The notes under the pieces are model-generated. The model ran no database searches and was not told the DNA's origin. It saw only the letters and a list, made by a program, of their open reading frames with translations. The position numbers were made by a program, and so were the translations under genes. A stretch of DNA of 64,000 nucleotides from Devosia sp. 67-54 (GTDB taxonomy: Bacteria > Pseudomonadota > Alphaproteobacteria > Rhizobiales > Devosiaceae), in contig NZ_MKVA01000011.1 in the NCBI RefSeq assembly GCF_001899075.1, positions 558,001 through 622,000 on the forward strand, given 5' to 3'. Shown here piece by piece: positions 48,802 through 59,428 of the stretch. Every line of letters starts with the position of its first letter. Within the stretch, counting starts at the first letter, position 1.

Positions 48802-48836
48802 TTTAAACGTTTGCAATTGGTCTGCAAACGTTTAAA
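48802..48836. promoter_or_regulatory. LacI-family double operator
   Basis: TTTAAACGTTTGCA (48802-48815) and its perfect reverse complement (48823-48836), separated by seven bases; each arm has an AAACGTTT centre with the CG step typical of LacI-family sites. It lies 25 bases before the LacI gene, so the operon is autoregulated. One more copy is found at 59374-59388. Confidence 0.75.
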
Positions 48837-48860: not shown

Positions 48861-49904
48861 GTGGCCGGTCTGACGCTGCGCGAACTCGCAGGCAAGCTGG
48901 ACGTCTCGGTGGCCACGGTGTCGCGCGCACTGGCGGGCGACCAGGCCATCGCCCTCAAGACGCGCGAGCGCGTCGCCGAGGCCGCCCGGCGCTTCGGCTA
49001 CGTCCCCAACGTCGCGGCGCGCCAGCTGGTTTCCGGCCGCTCCGGCTTCATCGGCTTCGTCATGCCGGTGCGCGGCCCCAATTTCATCGATTCCTATCTC
49101 GGCGAATTCGTCGCCGGGCTGGGGGAGGGGCTGGTCGAGCACGGCATCGACCTGTTCATCGCCACCGTGCAGGCCGGCCGCTCGGAGCTGTCGGTGCTGC
49201 GCCACGTGGTCGAATCCGGCCGCGCCGACGGCGTCGTCGTGCCCCGCATCGGCGAGACCGACGAACGCCTGCAATACCTGCTCGAGCGCAACTTCCCCTT
49301 CGTCGCCCATGGCCGGCTGCTCGACGCCTCGGTGCCCTACAACTGGCTCGATTCCGACAGCGTCGTCGCCTTCGGCGAAGCCTTCGACCTGCTCTACGAT
49401 CTCGGCCACCGGCATTTCGGCCTCGTCTCCATCTCCGACGCCATGACCTTCCGCCACATGCGCGAGCGCGGCCTGCGCGAGGCCATGGCGCGGCGCGGCG
49501 ACCCCAATGTGACGCTGGAGGTGGCGAGCGCCCCGCGCTTCGACCGCGGCGCCACCGTGGCCGCCATCAACGGCCTGATCCACCGCGAGCACCGCCCGAC
49601 CGCCATCCTCGGCCTGTTCGACGAACTGGCGCTGACGGTGATGGAGGAGGCGGCGCGCGCCGGCCTCTCCATCCCGCGCGATCTGTCGGTGGTCGGCTTC
49701 GACAACATCACCGCGGCCGCCTACGCGCCGCCCGGCCTCACCACCTTCGAGGCGCGCACCCGCGACTCGGCGCGCGAGATCGCCGGCATGCTGGTCGACG
49801 TCATCGAAAAGCGCTCGGCCGGCCCGGCGACCCGGCTGATCCGGCCGCAATTCGTGCCGCGCGCCAGCCACGGCCCGGCGCCACCGCCGACAACCAAGTT
49901 CTGA
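48861..49904 (+). CDS. LacI-family transcriptional regulator
   Basis: 347 residues, GTG start behind GGGAGGGG. The helix-turn-helix LRELAGKLDVSVATVSRALA and hinge region RRFGYVPNVAARQL are typical, followed by a periplasmic-binding-protein-like sensor domain (GFIGFVMPVRGPNFIDSYLG, SVVGFDNITAAAYAPPGLTT). The sensor presumably recognises a sugar related to the transported compound. The transporter operon begins 24 bases after its stop, and its own upstream region has the double operator. Confidence 0.93.
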   Translation: MAGLTLRELAGKLDVSVATVSRALAGDQAIALKTRERVAEAARRFGYVPNVAARQLVSGRSGFIGFVMPVRGPNFIDSYLGEFVAGLGEGLVEHGIDLFIATVQAGRSELSVLRHVVESGRADGVVVPRIGETDERLQYLLERNFPFVAHGRLLDASVPYNWLDSDSVVAFGEAFDLLYDLGHRHFGLVSISDAMTFRHMRERGLREAMARRGDPNVTLEVASAPRFDRGATVAAINGLIHREHRPTAILGLFDELALTVMEEAARAGLSIPRDLSVVGFDNITAAAYAPPGLTTFEARTRDSAREIAGMLVDVIEKRSAGPATRLIRPQFVPRASHGPAPPPTTKF

Positions 49905-49928: not shown

Positions 49929-51200
49929 ATGAGACGAAATCTCGTGGCGCTTGCCGGCGCTGCCCTGGCACTGGTCATGGCGACCAATGCCGTCGAGGCG
50001 CAGGTGCTGTTCTGGGCCAACCAGGCGGTTCCCGTCGAGGAAGCGCAGAAGATGCGCGACAACGTGCTCAAGAACTTCCCCGGCGGCGCCGACTTCCAGC
50101 CGCAGGATCCGGGCCCGTTCATCACCCGCATCCAGGCCGAGGAGCAGGCCGGCTCGGGCACCATCGGCGTCGTCGGCGCCCTGCATGGCGACCTGGCCAG
50201 CTTCACCAAGGACTGGATCGATCTGAGCGACATCGACCTCGGCGCCGTCAAGCCGAGCCCGGCCTTCATGCAATTGGGCAAGCTCGGCACCAGCGAGCAG
50301 AAATACCTGCCCTGGATGCAGGCCAATTACGTCATGGTGGCCAACAAGCAGGCGCTGCAATATCTGCCGCAGGGCGCCGACATCAACGACCTGACCTATG
50401 ACCAGCTGATCGACTGGGCCAAGGCCATGGCCGAAAAGACCGGCTCGCCGAAATTCGGCTTTCCCGCCGGCCCCAAGGGGCTGAAGCACCGCTTCTTCCA
50501 GGGCTTCCTGCTGCCCGCCTATACCGGCTCGGAGGTCAGCAAGTTCCGCTCGGCCGACGCCGCCACCGCCTGGGGCAAGTTCAAGGAGCTGTGGCAGTAC
50601 ACCAACCCGGCCTCGACCAATTACGACTTCATGCAGGAGCCGCTGCTCACCGGCGACGTCTGGGTGGCGTTCGACCACATCGCCCGCCTCGGCACCGCCT
50701 TCAACCAGAAGCCCGACGACTTCGTCGCCTTCCCGGCGCCCAAGGGGCCGAAGGGCAGGGCGTTCATGCCGGTGCTCGCCGGCCTGGCGATCCCCAAATG
50801 GGCACCCGACGTCGCCAAGGCCAAGGAACTGGTCAAGTACATGATGCAGCCCGAGCAGCAGGTGGCGACCCTGCTCGCGACCACCTTCTTCCCGGTGACC
50901 GACGCCGCGCTGCCCGCCGATCTGCCGGCCGCCGCGCGCGCCCTCGGCCCGGCGGTGACCGCCCAGACCAGCTCGCCCGATGCCCTGCCGGCGCTGCTGC
51001 CGGTCGGCCTCGGCGACAAGGGCGGCCAGTTCAACCAGGTCTATATCGACACCTTCGAGCGCATCGTCCTCAACAACGAGGACATCAAGACCGTGCTCGA
51101 TTCCGAGGCCGATACGCTGCGCCAGATCATGATCGACACCAAGGCGCCATGCTGGCTGCCCGACGCCGATTCGAACGGCCAGCCCTGCCCGGTGGAGTAA
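49929..51200 (+). CDS. Sugar ABC transporter substrate-binding protein (family 1)
   Basis: 423 residues, ATG preceded by GGGAGGAT. A signal peptide ends near NAVEA (about residue 24). Typical late segments are GKFKELWQYTNPASTNYDFM and the solute-binding block YDQLIDWAKAMAEKT. It feeds the MalF/MalG-type permeases downstream. A strong stem-loop follows the stop. Neighbouring GH63-like hydrolases suggest a glycosyl-glycerate/glycerol-like ligand rather than a long oligosaccharide (inference). Confidence 0.92.
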   Translation: MRRNLVALAGAALALVMATNAVEAQVLFWANQAVPVEEAQKMRDNVLKNFPGGADFQPQDPGPFITRIQAEEQAGSGTIGVVGALHGDLASFTKDWIDLSDIDLGAVKPSPAFMQLGKLGTSEQKYLPWMQANYVMVANKQALQYLPQGADINDLTYDQLIDWAKAMAEKTGSPKFGFPAGPKGLKHRFFQGFLLPAYTGSEVSKFRSADAATAWGKFKELWQYTNPASTNYDFMQEPLLTGDVWVAFDHIARLGTAFNQKPDDFVAFPAPKGPKGRAFMPVLAGLAIPKWAPDVAKAKELVKYMMQPEQQVATLLATTFFPVTDAALPADLPAAARALGPAVTAQTSSPDALPALLPVGLGDKGGQFNQVYIDTFERIVLNNEDIKTVLDSEADTLRQIMIDTKAPCWLPDADSNGQPCPVE

Positions 51201-51266: not shown

Positions 51267-52112
51267 ATGAACACCAGGGCGCTGCCCTATCTGCTGCTGC
51301 TGCCGGCCACGCTGTTCCTGCTGGTGTTCTTCGTATACCCGTTCGTGCAGGTGGCGGTGCAGGCCTTCGTCGGCCCCGCCGGCTTCACCACCGACAACGT
51401 CCAGACCATGGTGAAGAACTTCCGCTTCTGGCCGTCGGTGCGGAACACCGTTCTGCTGGCCGCCATCGTCGTGCCGCTGCAATTGGTGATGGCGCTGGTG
51501 ATGGCCTCGATCGTCGCCAACCTCAAATCGGCGCGCAACACCATCCTTTACATCTTCACCATCCCGCTGGGCCTGTCCGACCTTGCCGCCGGCATCATCT
51601 GGCTCGCCATCTTCGAGCAGTCGGGCTTCCTCAACTCCATGCTGGTATCGCTCGGCGTCGTCGACAAGCCGATCCTGTTTTTGAGCTACCAGAACAGCTG
51701 GGTGATCTTCGTCGCCGTGCTGCTGGCCGAGCTGTGGCGCGCCACCGCCATCGTCATGGTCATCCTCGTCGCCGGCATGGGGCTGATCCCCAAGGAATAT
51801 TACGAGGCCGCCGAAGTGTTCGGCGCCGGGCCGTGGAAGCGCTTCCTCAAGGTCACGCTGCCGATGCTGAAGCCCAGCCTGCAGACCGCGCTGATCCTGC
51901 GCACCATCGCCGCCTTCGAGGTGTTCTCGGTGGTGCAGGCGCTGGGCGGCACCACGCTGCCGGTGCTGGTCGGCCAGACCTATGACTGGCAGTTCAACCA
52001 GCAGCAGACCGGCGTCGCCGCCGCCATGGCGCTGGTGATCCTCGCCATCTCGATCGCCTGCACGGTGTTCTTCCTGCGCGTGCTGCGCACGCCCAAGGGA
52101 GCCACGCTATGA
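51267..52112 (+). CDS. Sugar ABC transporter permease, MalF/UgpA type
   Basis: 281 residues with six membrane helices. It begins LPYLLLLPATLFLLVFFVYP, and the EAA loop is EYYEAAEVFGAGPWKRFLKV (near residue 173). Forms the channel with the following permease, whose gene it overlaps by four bases (ATGA). Confidence 0.93.
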   Translation: MNTRALPYLLLLPATLFLLVFFVYPFVQVAVQAFVGPAGFTTDNVQTMVKNFRFWPSVRNTVLLAAIVVPLQLVMALVMASIVANLKSARNTILYIFTIPLGLSDLAAGIIWLAIFEQSGFLNSMLVSLGVVDKPILFLSYQNSWVIFVAVLLAELWRATAIVMVILVAGMGLIPKEYYEAAEVFGAGPWKRFLKVTLPMLKPSLQTALILRTIAAFEVFSVVQALGGTTLPVLVGQTYDWQFNQQQTGVAAAMALVILAISIACTVFFLRVLRTPKGATL

Positions 52113-52957
52113 CCGACGCCGCTCTCGCCGACGTGCCGCGCCCGGTCTCGGAGGTCACCAGCGCCGGCAAGGTGCTGTACTGGGCCGGCATCGTGCTGCT
52201 GTGCGCCTGGGTGCTGGTGCCCATCTACTTCCTGCTCAGCAACGCGCTCTCTTCGCCGGCGGAGGTGACGAGCTTTCCCAAGCACTGGGTGCCGTCCTTC
52301 GACATGGGCTCGCTGCAGTTCTTCCTGAGCTTCGGCGGCGTGCTGAAGGCGCTGATGAATTCGGTGATCGTCGCCGTGCTGACGATGATCCTCTCGATCG
52401 GCTTCGGCGCCCCCGCCGGCTACGCGCTGTCGCGCTTCGACTTCTGGGGCAAGGACGCGTTCCGCCTGCTGGTGCTGATGACCCGCGCCTTTCCGCTGCC
52501 GCTGCTGGCGCTGCCCATCGCCGTGATGTTCATCCGCGTCGGTCTCGACGACACCCAGCTCGGCCTCGCCCTCGTCCACACCACGCTCGCCATTCCGTTC
52601 GCCGTGCTCATCACCTTCTCGATCTTCGCCGGCGTGCCGGTGGAGCTCGAGGAGGCAGCCTGGACGCTCGGCTGCAACCGCTGGCAGGCCTTCCGCAAGG
52701 TGGTGCTGCCGCTGGTGCTGCCCGGCATCACCGCCTCGGCCATCTTCGCCTTCACCATCTCGTGGAACGAGGTGTTCGCCGCCGCCGTGCTCACCGTGCA
52801 GAACCGCACGCTGACCGCCTTCCTGCTGCAGAGCCTCAACGTCTCGCCGCTGCATCTGCGCTTCGCCGGCGGCGCCGCGCTGGTGATCCCGGCGCTCGTC
52901 TTCATCTTCGCCGTTCGCAAATACATGTTTGCAATGTGGGGCATCGCCAACCGATGA
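52109..52957 (+). CDS. Sugar ABC transporter permease, MalG/UgpE type
   Basis: 282 residues with six membrane helices; EAA loop ELEEAAWTLGCNRWQAFRKV. Second membrane subunit of the LacI-controlled importer. An 84-base gap with a short palindromic remnant separates it from the ATPase gene. Confidence 0.93.
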   Translation: MTDAALADVPRPVSEVTSAGKVLYWAGIVLLCAWVLVPIYFLLSNALSSPAEVTSFPKHWVPSFDMGSLQFFLSFGGVLKALMNSVIVAVLTMILSIGFGAPAGYALSRFDFWGKDAFRLLVLMTRAFPLPLLALPIAVMFIRVGLDDTQLGLALVHTTLAIPFAVLITFSIFAGVPVELEEAAWTLGCNRWQAFRKVVLPLVLPGITASAIFAFTISWNEVFAAAVLTVQNRTLTAFLLQSLNVSPLHLRFAGGAALVIPALVFIFAVRKYMFAMWGIANR

Positions 52958-53041: not shown

Positions 53042-54078
<1,037 letters not shown>

Positions 54079-54082
<4 letters not shown>

Positions 54083-55347
54083 CCACGCCCGCCACCCGTT
54101 CGCCCGAGGCCGACGCCGCCATCGCGGTGCTGCGCGACAACGACCGCGGCAGCTACACCGTGCCCACCAAGGGGCTCTACCCCTTCCAGTGGAACTGGGA
54201 TTCCTGCTTCACCGCGCTCGGCATCAGCCACTACGACATGGGCCGTGCCTGGACCGAGATCGAAACGCTGTTCCAGCAGCAATGGGCCGACGGCATGCTG
54301 CCGCACATGGTGTTCCACGAGGCGGCGCCCGGCTATTTCCCCGGCCCGGACGTCTGGGGCACCGGCCGCACGCCGCCGACCTCGGGCATCACCCAGCCGC
54401 CGATCGCCGGCTTTGCCGTGCACCAGCTCTATCGCCGCAGCGGCGACGCCGAGCGCGCCCGAGCGCTGCTGCCCAGGCTCGACCGCTATCACGACTGGTT
54501 CTACCGCACCCGCGATCCGCACGGCGAGGGGCTGGTCGCCATCATCCATCCGTGGGAATCGCGCGACAATTCCGTCGACTGGGACGAGGGTTTTGCGCGC
54601 GTGCCCACGGACGGCGTCGCCCCCTATGTCCGCAACGACACCAAGCACGCCGACCCTGCGACGCGCCCGACCAAGGAGCAGTACGACCGCTACCTCTGGC
54701 TGGTGCAGCATTTCCGCGGGCTCGGCTGGGACTCGGCGCGCACCCACGACGCCTCGCCGTTCCAGATCGTCGACCCCGGCGTCAACGCCATCCTCATCCG
54801 CTCCTGCCTCGAGACGGCCGACCTGGCCGAGGCGCTGGGCGAGCCCGCCATCGCCGCGCGCAACCGGGGCTGGGCGGCACGCGGCCTTGCCGGCCTCGAG
54901 GCCTGCTGGAGCGATGCCGCCGGCCAGTACCTGCCGCTCGACCGCATCGCCGGCCGGCAGGTGCAGAGCCCTTCGCTGGGCGGCCTGATCCCGCTGTTCG
55001 CGCCCATTCCCGCGGCCCGCGCCGCGACGCTGGGCGATACCCTCGGCGCCATCGGCGACAAGGTGCGCTACCTCGTCCCCAGCCACGATCCGCGCGACCG
55101 CAATTTCGACGTCCGGCGCTATTGGCGCGGCCCCGTCTGGCACGTCTGCAACTATCTGATCGTCGACGGCCTGCGGCGCGCCGGCATGACCGGCCTCGCC
55201 GACCGCATCGTCGCCGACAGCCTGGCCCTGATCGAACGCAGCGGCTTTGCCGAATATTACGATCCGACCGACGGCGCGCCGCTCGGCGGCGGCCGCTTCA
55301 GCTGGACCGCCGCCATCGTGCTCGAATTCGTCGAGCCCGCCAGATGA
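54079..55347 (+). CDS. GH63-like glycoside hydrolase (mannosyl/glucosylglycerate hydrolase type), paralogue 1
   Basis: 422 residues from the ATG at 54079. The (alpha/alpha)6-barrel signatures are GLYPFQWNWDSC (residue 32), YFPGPDVWGTGRTPPTSGIT and a C-terminal GFAEYYDPTDGAPLGGGRFS. Candidate catalytic acids are Asp163/Asp167 in WESRDNSVDWD and Glu392 in AEYYDP, by analogy with GH63 enzymes acting on mannosylglycerate and glucosylglycerate. No signal peptide. Encoded in the importer operon, it should cleave an imported glycoside in the cytoplasm. Substrate assignment is inference. A close paralogue is encoded at 56035. Confidence 0.85.
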
Positions 55348-56018
55348 CCAGCTTCGTCGAGCACTGGCGCGGCCGTGCCGGCTCGCTCGCCGCCTTCGGC
55401 GATTCCATCACCCAGGCGCTGCACATCGCCGATCCCGGAACGCGCTGGCCCCACCGGCTGGCGCAACTGCTCGGCGCTCGCCTCGACAATCGCGGCCGCA
55501 GCGGCACCGTGCTGCAGGCCTCGCCCGATGCGAGCGGGCAGCCGCGCCCCGGCAACGGCCGGCAGCGCTATGCCGCCGACCTGCTCGGCGGCGAGCGGGC
55601 CGACGTCATCGCCATCCTCTACGGCAGCAACGATGCGCGCTATACCGCCGCGCCGCGAAGCTTCAGCCTCGGCAATTTCATGCGCGACTATCGCGACATG
55701 CTCGCCGGCCTGTTTGCCGCCGGCTACGCCGCTGACGCCATCGTCGTCGGCAGCCCGCCGCCGCTGCCCGATGCCGGCTTCGCCGTCGGCGCCGCGGACG
55801 GTTTCGCCGGCCAGAGCCGTGCCGAATTCCAGCGCTATGCCGAGGCGGTGAAATCCGTCGCCCGGGCGGCGGGCACCTACTACGCGCCGGTCAACGAGCG
55901 CCTCGGCGCGGCCGACCTCGAGTCGCTGATCCTGCCCGACCACGTGCACCCCAATGCCGACGGCCACGCCGTCATCGCCGCGACCTTTGCGGAGGCCACA
56001 CGGCTTCCCCCGACCTGA
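55344..56018 (+). CDS. SGNH/GDSL-family hydrolase
   Basis: 224 residues, overlapping the GH63-like gene by four bases. Block I is LAAFGDSITQALH with the nucleophile Ser22 or so, block III ILYGSNDARY, block V PDHVHPNADGHAVIAA with the Asp-His pair. Cytoplasmic. It lies between two GH63-like paralogues, so it most likely removes an acyl group from the same glycoside or its product (inference). Confidence 0.88.
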   Translation: MTSFVEHWRGRAGSLAAFGDSITQALHIADPGTRWPHRLAQLLGARLDNRGRSGTVLQASPDASGQPRPGNGRQRYAADLLGGERADVIAILYGSNDARYTAAPRSFSLGNFMRDYRDMLAGLFAAGYAADAIVVGSPPPLPDAGFAVGAADGFAGQSRAEFQRYAEAVKSVARAAGTYYAPVNERLGAADLESLILPDHVHPNADGHAVIAATFAEATRLPPT

Positions 56019-56034
56019 CCAGCAGAGTTCTCCC

Positions 56035-57315
56035 ATGACCAAGTCCGATCCCGCCGATCTCTACCAGCTTGCCGCCGAGGTGCTGCGCGAAAACGACCGC
56101 GGCAGCTACACCGTGCCCACCAAGGGCCTCTACCCCTTCCAGTGGAACTGGGATTCCTGCCTCACCGCGCTCGGCCAGCGGCATTTCGACGAGGCCCGCG
56201 CCTGGACCGAGATCGAAACGCTGTTCCAGCACCAATGGCCCGACGGCATGGTGCCGCACATCGTCTTTCACGTGCAGTCCGACGGCTATTTCCCCGGCCC
56301 CGACGTGTGGGCCACCAACCGGCCGACGCCGACCTCGGGCATCACCCAGCCGCCGGTCGCGGGCTTTGCCGTCAAGCGCCTGTTCGATGCGGCAAAGGAC
56401 AAGGCGCTGGCCCGCGCCCGCGCCACCGCGCTGCTGCCCCGGATCGACGCCTGGCATCGCTGGTTCTACCAGATGCGCGACCCGCACGGCGACGGCCTCG
56501 TCGCCATCCTCCATCCCTGGGAATCGGGGCGCGACAATTCCATCGACTGGGACGACGCCTTCGAGCGCGTGCCGACCGAGGGGGTGGGCGCCTACACCCG
56601 GCGCGATACCCAGCACGCCGACCCGGCGCACCGCCCGACCAAGGCGCAGTACGACCGCTACCTCTGGCTGGTGCAGCATTTCCGCGCGCTGGGCTGGGAC
56701 AACAGCCGGCTGCACGACGCCTCGCCCTTCCGCGTGGTCGATCCCGGCTTCAACGCCATCCTCATCCGCTCCTGCCTCGACCTCGCCGATCTCGCCGACA
56801 CTCTCGGCGTCCCCGCCATCGCCGAGGCCAATCGTGCCCGCGCCCAGCGCGGCCTCGGCGCGCTCGAGGCGCTGTGGAGCGACGCGCATGGCCAGTATCT
56901 GTGCCATGACCGCACCACCGGCGGGCTGATCGACAGCGCCTCGATCGGCGGCCTGCTGCCGGTGTTCGCCGCCATTCCGCCGACGCGCGCCCACGACATC
57001 GCCCGCACCATTGAGCGCCGCGCCGAAAGGCTGCGGTTCATCGTCGCCTCGCACGACCCGGCCGATCCGCGCTTCGAGCCCAAGCGCTACTGGCGCGGCC
57101 CGGCCTGGCTGGTGATGAACTACATGATCGCCGATGGCCTGGGCGCCGCGGGCGAAACGGCGGTCGCCGACCACATCGTGCGCTCGAGCCTCGAGCTCAT
57201 CACCCGCTCCGGCTTCGCCGAATATTACGACCCGCTGACCGGCGAGCCCTGCGGCGGCGGCCGCTTCACCTGGACGGCGGCGATGGTGGTGGAGTTCCTC
57301 GCGCGCCAGCGCTGA
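56035..57315 (+). CDS. GH63-like glycoside hydrolase (mannosyl/glucosylglycerate hydrolase type), paralogue 2
   Basis: 426 residues from the ATG at 56035. Same signatures as paralogue 1: GLYPFQWNWDSC, YFPGPDVWATNRPTPTSGIT, GRDNSIDWDD and GFAEYYDPLTGEPCGGGRFT, so both catalytic regions are intact. Bases 56094-56178 are almost identical to 54133-54217 in paralogue 1 (two differences by eye), whereas other parts have diverged, suggesting duplication with later gene conversion. Last gene of the LacI operon; it converges on the Gfo/Idh/MocA gene with a three-base gap. Confidence 0.85.
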   Translation: MTKSDPADLYQLAAEVLRENDRGSYTVPTKGLYPFQWNWDSCLTALGQRHFDEARAWTEIETLFQHQWPDGMVPHIVFHVQSDGYFPGPDVWATNRPTPTSGITQPPVAGFAVKRLFDAAKDKALARARATALLPRIDAWHRWFYQMRDPHGDGLVAILHPWESGRDNSIDWDDAFERVPTEGVGAYTRRDTQHADPAHRPTKAQYDRYLWLVQHFRALGWDNSRLHDASPFRVVDPGFNAILIRSCLDLADLADTLGVPAIAEANRARAQRGLGALEALWSDAHGQYLCHDRTTGGLIDSASIGGLLPVFAAIPPTRAHDIARTIERRAERLRFIVASHDPADPRFEPKRYWRGPAWLVMNYMIADGLGAAGETAVADHIVRSSLELITRSGFAEYYDPLTGEPCGGGRFTWTAAMVVEFLARQR

Positions 57316-57318
57316 GCG

Positions 57319-58293
57319 CTACGGCGCCATTTCGGCATGCGTCTCGGCCGAGCGCCGCGCCGCCAGCACGATGCGAAGCGTCGCGAGCCCATCCGCCAGC
57401 GGCACGCGCGGCGCCCGCCTTTCGGCGATGGCGTCGCGCAGATCGGTGAGCTGCGCGACGAACGGATCGGCCGTGCCGGCGATGGTTTCGCTCTGCACCG
57501 CGCCGGCGGCATGGACGATCTCGGCATGGTTCCAGTCGGCGAACATCCCCGTGGCCCGTTCGGCGACGATCTGCCAGCCCTTCATCCAGCGGCCGGGAAC
57601 GGCGCCGTTCGAGGCGTGCAGCACGCCGACACGCCCGTCGTCATAGCCGAGCACCAGCGCGCTCGCGTCGTCCGCCGTATAGCCCGGCACATCGTGGTGA
57701 AACACATTGCCGGCACGGGCATAGACCGCCTGCGGCATGCCGAGATTCTGCCGCGCCAGGTCGACGATGTGGATCAGTTGTTCCACCATCTGCCCGCCGG
57801 ATCTGTCGCGCTCGCGCCACCATGGCGCGTGCAGCGCGTTGCTGTGGAACGAGCCGGAGAAGTGTCCGACCGCGCCCGTCTCGCCGGCCGCTGAAAGGGC
57901 GTTCCAGCGCTCCACCGCCGCGCCGAACCGGTACATGAAGCCGCACGCCGCGACGACGCCCTGCGTGGCCGCGACCATGCTTTGCGCCCGCTCGAGCTGC
58001 AGCGCGATCGGCTTTTCCACGAGGACGTTGATGCCCCGCGCCGCCGCCCGCTCCACCTCGCCCGCATGCGCGTAAGGCGGCAGCGCCACCACCAGCAGGT
58101 CGAGCGCCGCCTCGTCCAGCATGCGCGCGAAATCGGTGTAGGCCACGCCGCCGAATTTCGCGGCGAAGGCTGCGGTACGTTCCGCGTCGCGCCCGCAACA
58201 GGCGACGAGCGTCAGCTCCGGCACCTGCTGTATCGCGCCGGCGTGCCGGGCGCCGATGCCGCCGCAGCCGAGCACTCCGACGCGCCGGCTCAT
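57319..58293 (-). CDS. Gfo/Idh/MocA-family oxidoreductase
   Basis: 324 residues. The N-terminal Rossmann motif is VGVLGCGGIGARHAGAI. The catalytic-lysine block of the family reads VLVEKPIALQLERAQSM (EKP). The C-terminal domain has GGQMVEQLIHIVDLARQNLG. NAD(P)-dependent sugar or polyol dehydrogenation is typical. It overlaps the zinc-type dehydrogenase by four bases on the same strand and belongs to the LacI regulon through the operator at 59374. Confidence 0.9.
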   Translation of the reverse strand: MSRRVGVLGCGGIGARHAGAIQQVPELTLVACCGRDAERTAAFAAKFGGVAYTDFARMLDEAALDLLVVALPPYAHAGEVERAAARGINVLVEKPIALQLERAQSMVAATQGVVAACGFMYRFGAAVERWNALSAAGETGAVGHFSGSFHSNALHAPWWRERDRSGGQMVEQLIHIVDLARQNLGMPQAVYARAGNVFHHDVPGYTADDASALVLGYDDGRVGVLHASNGAVPGRWMKGWQIVAERATGMFADWNHAEIVHAAGAVQSETIAGTADPFVAQLTDLRDAIAERRAPRVPLADGLATLRIVLAARRSAETHAEMAP

Positions 58294-59342
58294 GCGCTGC
58301 CGCCGAAATCCAGCACCGCCTGCAGGATTGCGGGATCGCCCGCGTCGAGCCGCGCAAGCATCGCCGGCGCCTCGGCGAACGGCACGGTATCGGTGATCAG
58401 CGGCAGCAGGTCGATCCGCCCTTCATGCTGCAGCGCGATCGCCGTCTGCCACAGCCTGAGCCGCGTCCAGCGATGGCTGCCGTCGGGCGCCACGCCCGAA
58501 ATCTGGCTCGAGATCAGCTCGATGCGGTTGTGGTGAAACTCGTCGCCGAGGAACAGCCCGCGCGCCTCGCCCTGGAACGCGCCCATCGACACCACGCGGC
58601 TGGCATAGGCCACCGTGCGCATGGCCTCGGCCAGCGCCGGGGCGGCGCCCGACACTTCGATGCAGATATCGGCGCCGCGGCCGCCGGTCTCGCGCTTGAC
58701 GATCTCGGCCACCGAGCCGGCGTTGGGGTCGAGCGTGCGCGCGGCGCCCAGCCGCGCCGCCATCGCCCGCCGCGCCGGCACCGGGTCGACGCCGATCACC
58801 GTGGCGCCCGAGGCGCGCGCCATCTGCGCCACGATCTGCCCGGGCACGCCCAGCCCGAACACCACCACCAGATCGCCCATGCGGATGCGCGCGTCGTGCA
58901 CGCCGTTCAGCGCCACCGCGCCGATATGCGAGAAGATGCCGATGCGCGGGTCGGCGCCCTCCGGCAGCCGCCGCGCCAGCGCATCGGCGGCGCTCATCGT
59001 GTGGTGCGTGCGGTGCCACCAGGTGCCGAACACCCGCTCGCCGAGCCGCAGCCCCTCCACCTCGGCCCCCAGCTCGACGATCTCGCCGACCTCCTCATAG
59101 CCCAGATTGGGGATCGGGTAGGTCCAGCTCGGCGTGTCGGACTCCTTGAAAAGCCGCAGCTTTTCGTCCCAGCGCCGGTTCATATAGGCCGACGTGCCGC
59201 GATATTGCGTGAGCTCGGTGCCGGCGCTGATGCCGGAAAACAGGGTGCGCAGCCGCACCTCGCGGGGACCGGGCGGGGGCAGGTCGAGCGGCTCGAACGA
59301 CAGCGTCCGCGGCCCGGTCAGCAGCAGTGCAAGAGGTGGCAT
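58290..59342 (-). CDS. Zinc-type alcohol dehydrogenase-like protein
   Basis: 350 residues. GTELTQYRGTSAY and PNLGYEEVGEIVELGAEVEG form the GroES-like catalytic domain; VVVFGLGVPGQIVAQMARAS is the coenzyme-binding GxGxxG region. The structural-zinc cysteine cluster and the usual first zinc Cys-(His) pair are not visible, so it belongs to the less studied group of sugar/polyol dehydrogenase relatives. Its start is 32 bases from a LacI-type operator, so it is co-regulated with the divergent block at 48861-57315. Confidence 0.87.
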   Translation of the reverse strand: MPPLALLLTGPRTLSFEPLDLPPPGPREVRLRTLFSGISAGTELTQYRGTSAYMNRRWDEKLRLFKESDTPSWTYPIPNLGYEEVGEIVELGAEVEGLRLGERVFGTWWHRTHHTMSAADALARRLPEGADPRIGIFSHIGAVALNGVHDARIRMGDLVVVFGLGVPGQIVAQMARASGATVIGVDPVPARRAMAARLGAARTLDPNAGSVAEIVKRETGGRGADICIEVSGAAPALAEAMRTVAYASRVVSMGAFQGEARGLFLGDEFHHNRIELISSQISGVAPDGSHRWTRLRLWQTAIALQHEGRIDLLPLITDTVPFAEAPAMLARLDAGDPAILQAVLDFGGSA

Positions 59343-59373: not shown

Positions 59374-59388
59374 TTTTAAACGTTTGCA
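59374..59388. promoter_or_regulatory. LacI-type operator copy
   Basis: TTTTAAACGTTTGCA, identical to 48801-48815 including the outer T. It lies directly upstream of the minus-strand dehydrogenase gene (start 59342). It brings the two oxidoreductase genes into the LacI regulon. Confidence 0.7.
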
Positions 59389-59428
59389 CATCCGGTTTCG
59401 GCCGCTTCTGGTCCGGAAACCCGCGCCG

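Follow-up and report, generated by a model that had tools for sequence, protein, structure and literature searches.

Why would one importer operon carry two closely related glycoside hydrolases (GH), and what do they cleave? The question is raised by a locus of Devosia sp. 67-54 (contig NZ_MKVA01000011.1, positions 558,001 to 622,000; this whole stretch of 64,000 nucleotides is called the window), where two GH paralogues, GHA and GHB, flank an SGNH hydrolase gene. The three genes close an operon of the order LacI regulator, solute-binding protein (SBP), permease, permease and ATPase of an ATP-binding cassette (ABC) transporter, all on the + strand. An earlier note on this DNA had described the hydrolase genes as lying back to back in a LacI-controlled importer operon, with WNWDS and EYYDP blocks in both GHs, and the open reading frames and both blocks are found where it placed them. 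With moderate confidence, we propose that the locus is a LacI-controlled catabolic regulon that scavenges a small hydroxy-acid alpha-glycoside; the likeliest candidate is mannosyl- or glucosylglycerate, accompanied by a modified form of it. Its features are as follows (PWM, position weight matrix).

48802..48836, no strand: predicted double LacI operator, a perfect 14-bp inverted repeat with a 7-bp spacer, TTTAAACGTTTGCA-N7-TGCAAACGTTTAAA, upstream of lacI; best PWM location.
48861..49904, + strand: LacI-family regulator with a GTG start (PF00356, PF13377).
49929..51200, + strand: ABC SBP (PF13416 6e-17, PF01547 5e-15).
51267..52112, + strand: ABC permease A (PF00528).
52109..52957, + strand: ABC permease B (PF00528).
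53042..54082, + strand: ABC ATPase of the UgpC/MalK type (PF00005, TOBE_2; UgpC model 395.5 bits against a cut-off of 432).
54079..55347, + strand: GHA, PF22422 glycoside hydrolase without the equivalent of MhGgH Gly180 (PWES-RDNS); from profile, alignment and model.
55344..56018, + strand: SGNH/GDSL hydrolase (PF13472 2.7e-21).
56035..57315, + strand: GHB, PF22422 glycoside hydrolase with Gly180 kept and Phe in place of Gln434; from profile and alignment.
57319..58293, - strand: Gfo/Idh/MocA oxidoreductase (Gfo), in the predicted second unit of the regulon (PF01408 3.5e-24; locus linkage).
58290..59342, - strand: oxidoreductase of the zinc-dehydrogenase superfamily (ZnDH), in the same second unit (PF00107 1.2e-22; locus linkage).
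59375..59389, no strand: third genomic match to the operator pattern, upstream of ZnDH, from the pattern search; second PWM location.

GHA (422 aa, ATG at 54079, stop at 55347) overlaps the ATPase gene by 4 bp, the SGNH gene (224 aa) overlaps GHA by 4 bp, and GHB (426 aa, ATG at 56035, stop at 57315) follows after a 16-bp gap. The two GHs are 65% identical (275/425), and the N-terminus of the SBP, judged by eye, resembles a signal peptide.

Both GHs were matched by PF22422, the mannosylglycerate-hydrolase MGH1-like domain (cut-off 27 bits), with 366.7 bits for GHA (2e-109) and 379.3 bits for GHB (3e-113). This is a far better fit than that of PF03200, the GH63 C-terminal domain, for which hmmscan gave the two proteins 31.2 and 24.5 bits (cut-off 22.4); a six-frame PF03200 search of the genome returned 0 matches, which is discordant with the hmmscan result for both proteins. 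The closest solved protein to either GH is the mannosylglycerate hydrolase (MgH) Tt8MgH (TTHA0978, 2z07; E 7e-117 for GHA, 4e-116 for GHB), and the glucosylglycerate hydrolase (GgH) MhGgH (5ohc) was matched with E 3e-65 by GHA and 9e-69 by GHB. A structure search, performed with GHA only, aligned its model (predicted local distance difference test, pLDDT, 85.1; predicted template modelling score, pTM, 0.90) with Tt8MgH 4wva at Z 51.8 and a root-mean-square deviation of 2.0 over 404 residues, which shows an MgH fold; the confidence of the GHB model is 89.3.

For the active site, 18 contact or catalytic positions of MhGgH were taken from the available excerpts of PMC6608630, on which all that is said here of residues in MhGgH and the characterised enzymes is based, and transferred to GHA by sequence alignment. 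Nine GHA-type rows were compared with 96 others, namely 9 of GHB and 87 further ones (105 rows, 102 of them different). At 16 of the 18 positions, including Asp182, Glu419, Asp43 and the glycerate contacts, all 9 GHA rows and all 96 others are identical; the Phe89 position holds Tyr in 2 of the 96 non-GHA rows, and that of Gln434 holds Phe in every row. GHB keeps Asp182, Glu419, Asp43, Tyr36, Trp40, Tyr88, Arg216, Tyr222, Tyr375 and Gly180. The relationship of both GHs to mannosyl- and glucosylglycerate hydrolases, claimed in the earlier note, is thus borne out by profile, solved relatives and kept contacts, with the fold shown for GHA; the best matches lead to no other GH family with an unrelated substrate, and no catalytic acid is missing from either paralogue. 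Since its catalytic and substrate contacts and Gly180 are kept, and since the transporter with GHB alone is widespread (see below), GHB is probably a glycosylglycerate hydrolase.

The two paralogues part at one residue. GHA reads PWES-RDNS, while a Gly follows the Ser, Ala or Thr in GHB and all other aligned homologues (67 WESGRDN, 18 WEAGRDN and 2 WETGRDN among the 87 further rows). This Gly180-equivalent is missing in 9/9 GHA-type rows and present in 96/96 others; it sits two residues ahead of the general acid, where the GHA loop is one residue shorter. As described in the excerpts of PMC6608630, Gly180 is among the residues that MhGgH and all characterised MgH strictly conserve, its carbonyl bonds the sugar, and the residue lines the entrance tunnel. 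GHA lacks a trait common to the characterised MgH and GgH, and we therefore keep it in PF22422 and do not file it as either. A sequencing error was considered and rejected, because the Gly is missing in all nine GHA-type rows, from nine genomes. An exact-codon scan of 385 alphaproteobacterial genomes found HPWE-x-R-DN in 1, the window's own, and HPWE-x-G-R-DN in 11, a thin sample searched with a strict pattern that speaks to rarity only. The loop block is modelled with a confidence of 69 in GHA and 76 in GHB, the GHA model being lower overall too.

Further near-fixed differences between the paralogues (GHA residue first) are Met77/Ile, Pro84/Asp or Glu, Leu107/Pro, Asn186/Arg, Thr195/His, Glu245/Asp, Ile304/Leu and Ser408/Thr. 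Position 107 is Leu in 8 of the 9 GHA rows and Pro, the common residue, in the GHA of the window; Thr195 corresponds to Gln215 of MhGgH, which the excerpts describe as a tunnel residue. Several of the divergent positions adjoin aglycone contacts. Because the loop before the general acid is one residue shorter, we infer that the substrate of GHA is most likely a glycoside related to, yet distinct from, the one cleaved by GHB. The earlier suggestion that the paralogues differ in what they cleave is in line with this active-site difference, which leaves the suggested choice between sugars or linkages outside its reach.

The distribution of these genes among relatives separates a common set from a rarer one. 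In a scan of genome contigs 570 relatives were confirmed, and counts out of 79 refer to the best 79 distinct loci; these are related to each other, and Fisher values for co-occurrence overstate. Of the 79, 71 have the transporter with a GHB-type gene, and 50 of these 71 also have a LacI of at least 45% identity. GHA was present in 5/79, SGNH in 6/79 and ZnDH with Gfo in 8/79. The nine GHA-type loci referred to throughout are those of the scan plus the window, G010, G119 and G139. Among 136 family genomes, 40 gave a GHA match at E<=0.001 and 8 were GHA-type by identity (at least 73%); in each of these 8, another match lies on the same contig, within 3 kb. SGNH lies between GHA and GHB in all nine GHA-type loci, window included; among the scanned loci it occurs in 5/5 with GHA and 1/74 without. 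As GHA-SGNH-GHB recurs in 9/9 and transporter plus GHB in 71/79, the arrangement goes beyond chance, and GHA with SGNH resembles a module of altered specificity that was added to a widespread transporter-GHB set. PF22422-type enzymes more remote from GHA (45-52% identity) were seen in L118, L119, L120, L121 and L122 among ABC permease and ATPase genes only weakly like those of the window; L118 and L119 also have a LacI-like gene (33-36%).

The regulon appears to extend beyond the operon. When up to one mismatch was allowed, the pattern TTNAAACGTTTGCAA occurred 3 times in the 4.2-Mb genome, twice within the 48802-48836 repeat and once at 59375-59389; the reversed-pattern control gave 0 matches, and with up to two mismatches allowed the chance expectation for the window is 0.01 matches. 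A PWM was built from 68 lacI-promoter sites with the window left out; its training sites include the lacI sites of the other tested loci and no ZnDH-promoter site. With it, the ZnDH-promoter site came out as the second location in 6 of the 8 loci with ZnDH on the opposite strand (the window, L026, L027, L028, L114 and L031, of which L027 and L114 are close relatives). Judging by the motif, we predict a LacI regulon of two units, the lacI operon, probably autoregulated, and a convergent ZnDH-Gfo unit. The operator pattern before ZnDH is the reason why ZnDH and Gfo, absent from the parts listed in the earlier note, should count as part of the system. The pair was found in 5/5 scanned loci with GHA and 3/74 without, and it lies beside the GHs in 8 of the 9 GHA loci; in G139 the transporter, GHs, SGNH, ZnDH, Gfo and a GH36-like gene all run in one direction.

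As to function, the solved relatives of Gfo and ZnDH are broad dehydrogenase matches only. Zinc dehydrogenases usually carry a cysteine near their start, at a place where the ZnDH protein (58290-59342) reads SGISAGTE, with no cysteine; ZnDH may for this reason not be a classical zinc enzyme.

In the pathway that we propose, the SBP and ABC transporter, judged by their families, would import the solute into the cytoplasm. GHB would cleave plain mannosyl- or glucosylglycerate to hexose and glycerate by the inverting mechanism of MgH and GgH, as its conserved contacts suggest, and GHA, a diverged sister with the same acid and base, here D163 and E392, would act on a related glycoside able to fit its shortened loop. 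SGNH may serve as an intracellular deacylase, ZnDH and Gfo probably oxidise the released or bound sugar part, in a reaction that we can only guess, and a MOFRL-domain protein present in the genome, as in glycerate kinases, could phosphorylate the glycerate. In the excerpts of PMC6608630, glucosyl- and mannosylglycerate are described as compatible solutes. Of the earlier idea of an imported and cleaved glycosylglycerate-type solute, import and cleavage of a small alpha-glycoside stand by homology; two sugars or two linkages would go beyond it.

Several observations weigh against this reading. NCBIfam NF047898, the glucosylglycerate hydrolase equivalog, scores 360.3 bits for GHA and 363 for GHB, below its cut-off of 550. 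No PDB relative of the SBP was found at E<=0.001, so that solved relatives supply no ligand, and 8 of the 79 loci lack a full transporter set in the stretch examined, some of them on short contigs and some not (e.g., L089). Divergent positions are near contacts in 4/8 cases against 36/182, a difference that is not significant (p 0.06, gap column not counted). It is not obvious what ZnDH, Gfo or the GH36-like gene of relatives would do in the breakdown of a glycosylglycerate, the GHA locus L155 of G119 has no ZnDH or Gfo within the 19 kb read, and the PWM scan found no operator at ZnDH in L029 and L030. Lastly, the absence of a PF09488 mannosyl-3-phosphoglycerate synthase from the genome speaks for scavenging, but it covers the mannosyl route of own synthesis only, so that scavenging is not established.

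A GH36-like gene of about 610-645 aa adjoins ZnDH-Gfo in 8 of the 11 loci with the pair (L026, L027, L028, L031, L039, L043, L114 and L156; not in the window, L029 or L030) and occurs in 5 of the 9 GHA loci; its closest PDB match is 1zy9, an alpha-galactosidase of T. maritima (3e-47). Since the genome of the window has no match to this gene, it was rejected as a component of the system found here. In G031 (L113), whose genome is without a GHA match, ZnDH and a GH36-like gene lie near a LacI. The co-regulated oxidoreductases, with the GH36-like and PIG-L genes of relatives, suggest a substrate richer than plain glycosylglycerate. A further, tentative possibility is that GHA, through the loss of the sugar-binding Gly180, represents a new GH63/PF22422 specificity for a chemically modified glycosyl hydroxy acid (acylated, oxidised at the sugar by Gfo/ZnDH, or with an amino sugar), in which case the GHA-SGNH-GHB-ZnDH-Gfo regulon, with the GH36-like gene in relatives, would serve to catabolise a natural product for which no pathway has been described. 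Two paralogues of one operon differ at a residue kept by the characterised enzymes, and the role of the loop in sugar recognition is for that reason testable by one residue.

The SGNH protein scores 77.3 bits with PF13472 (cut-off 32.9) and keeps the GDS, GxND and DxxHP motifs in 9/9 proteins of the GHA loci; by eye, no signal peptide was seen at its start, and its closest PDB sequence match is an aryl esterase at E 0.003 only. It probably removes an acyl group inside the cell, and an acylated substrate is plausible, the SGNH gene with these motifs being all that points to it. Several genes stand near it in relatives: three GHA loci (L026:11898-12662, L029 and L030) have a gene for a short-chain dehydrogenase between SGNH and GHB; L026 also has, between ATPase and GHA, a GNAT acetyltransferase identified by a Pfam match (L026:9369-9974), and L155 has at the same place (L155:14625-15224) a protein with a start like that of the L026 GNAT. 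An SGNH paralogue (55-56% identical) was found at L157:9504-10175 (G000:C6), divergent from another LacI-ABC operon that includes a 536-aa protein, FAD (flavin adenine dinucleotide)-oxidoreductase-like by its start; L160 and L161 have a similar layout.

The earlier note's more specific scheme, in which SGNH deacylates an imported acylated glycosylglycerate and each of the two GHs cleaves its own sugar or linkage variant of the same acid, agrees with the identical glycerate contacts of the two GHs, the position of SGNH between them in 9/9 loci and, going by the excerpts, the sugar contact made by the lost Gly. We nonetheless consider it rather unlikely: the sequence carries no sign of an acyl group, 73 of the 79 loci have no SGNH in the stretch examined, and the gene is not tied to this pathway, because its paralogue adjoins another LacI-ABC operon.

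In trees, the GHA rows form one clade (bootstrap 100; Shimodaira-Hasegawa-like approximate likelihood ratio test, SH-aLRT, 99) that is placed outside the GHB-type rows and has a long stem, with 0.41-0.47 changes per column. An approximately unbiased (AU) test on 53 rows did not reject a single clade of GHA with 19 GHB-type rows of the Devosia lineage (p 0.509); by the trees and this test, the paralogues may have split before or within that lineage. A metagenome-assembled Devosia genome, G007, has at L068:10001-11621 a GHA stub of about 100 codons, 78% identical, directly before an intact GHB and with no SGNH, which we read as a relic of the loss of GHA and SGNH. The long stem, and the loss in every GHA row of an otherwise invariant sugar-contact Gly, suggest a changed site; against them stand the 65% identity and the identical catalytic and glycerate contacts, expected if GHA and GHB were isoenzymes for the same glycosylglycerate that differ only in affinity, regulation or cap closure, an explanation we hold to be quite doubtful.

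The accessory genes raise the question whether the substrate is a glycerate glycoside at all. The best NCBIfam models are inositol 2-dehydrogenase for Gfo (121.6 bits, cut-off 355) and scyllo-inosose 3-dehydrogenase for ZnDH (85.2 bits, cut-off 450), both far below cut-off. A PIG-L deacetylase, whose best NCBIfam model is BshB1 (97.3 bits, cut-off 182.5), lies after or near GHB in 18 of the 79 loci and in L114, L115 and L116 (among them L027, L039, L045, L048, L054, L061 and L062); it shows no association with GHA (2/5 loci with, 16/74 without), and the window locus has no match. These inositol-related models and the BshB1-like gene would suit a small polar alpha-glycoside of another kind, for example an inositol glycoside or a compound resembling N-acetylglucosaminyl-malate. 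Taking into consideration that no row has lost the Arg, Tyr or Trp contacts to glycerate, that the Gfo and ZnDH matches are weak and their families broad, and that PIG-L has no match at the window locus, such a substrate seems improbable.

Median pairwise dN/dS (nonsynonymous to synonymous substitution ratio), computed over 36 pairs for each gene from the same nine loci with codons holding N skipped, is 0.175 for GHA and 0.203 for GHB. Purifying selection acts on GHA about as strongly as on GHB; with this low ratio and its catalytic residues kept in 9/9 rows, GHA is not decaying. That it has lost catalysis and persists only as a partner or sensor protein is accordingly very unlikely, since the general acid, base and Asp43-equivalent are kept in 9/9 and its dN/dS is as low as that of GHB, even if the shorter loop could misplace the general acid and its block is modelled at 69 against 76 (though the GHA model is lower overall, 85.1 against 89.3).

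In the literature searched, which left out most subscription journals, no characterised bacterial importer operon for glucosyl- or mannosylglycerate was found and, as the earlier note had stated, no characterised system with this gene set. The closest enzyme is Tt8MgH of Thermus thermophilus HB8 (4wva, 4wvb, 4wvc, 2z07), of the same family and fold, 44-48% identical to GHA and with the catalytic and contact residues that the excerpts of PMC6608630 name as common to all characterised MgH; GHA differs in lacking the Gly before the general acid. MhGgH of Mycolicibacterium hassiacum (5ohc and others; PMC6608630) shares Asp182, Glu419, Asp43 and the glycerate contacts with GHA and GHB; it is only 31-34% identical to GHA, its Gln434 is Phe here, its Gly180 is missing in GHA, and it is presented in the excerpts as mobilising the cell's own glucosylglycerate, unlike the import proposed here. 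E. coli YgjK (GH63) has the catalytic-domain fold of GHA (Z 37-38), with 20-22% identity over about 360 aligned of 760 residues. At the level of the operon, the nearest are the uncharacterised LacI-SBP-Perm-Perm-ATPase-GHB operons of Mesorhizobium, Rhodobacteraceae, Granulosicoccaceae and others, which have the same transporter and GHB, and differ in how few of the loci carry GHA (5/79), SGNH (6/79) or ZnDH with Gfo (8/79).

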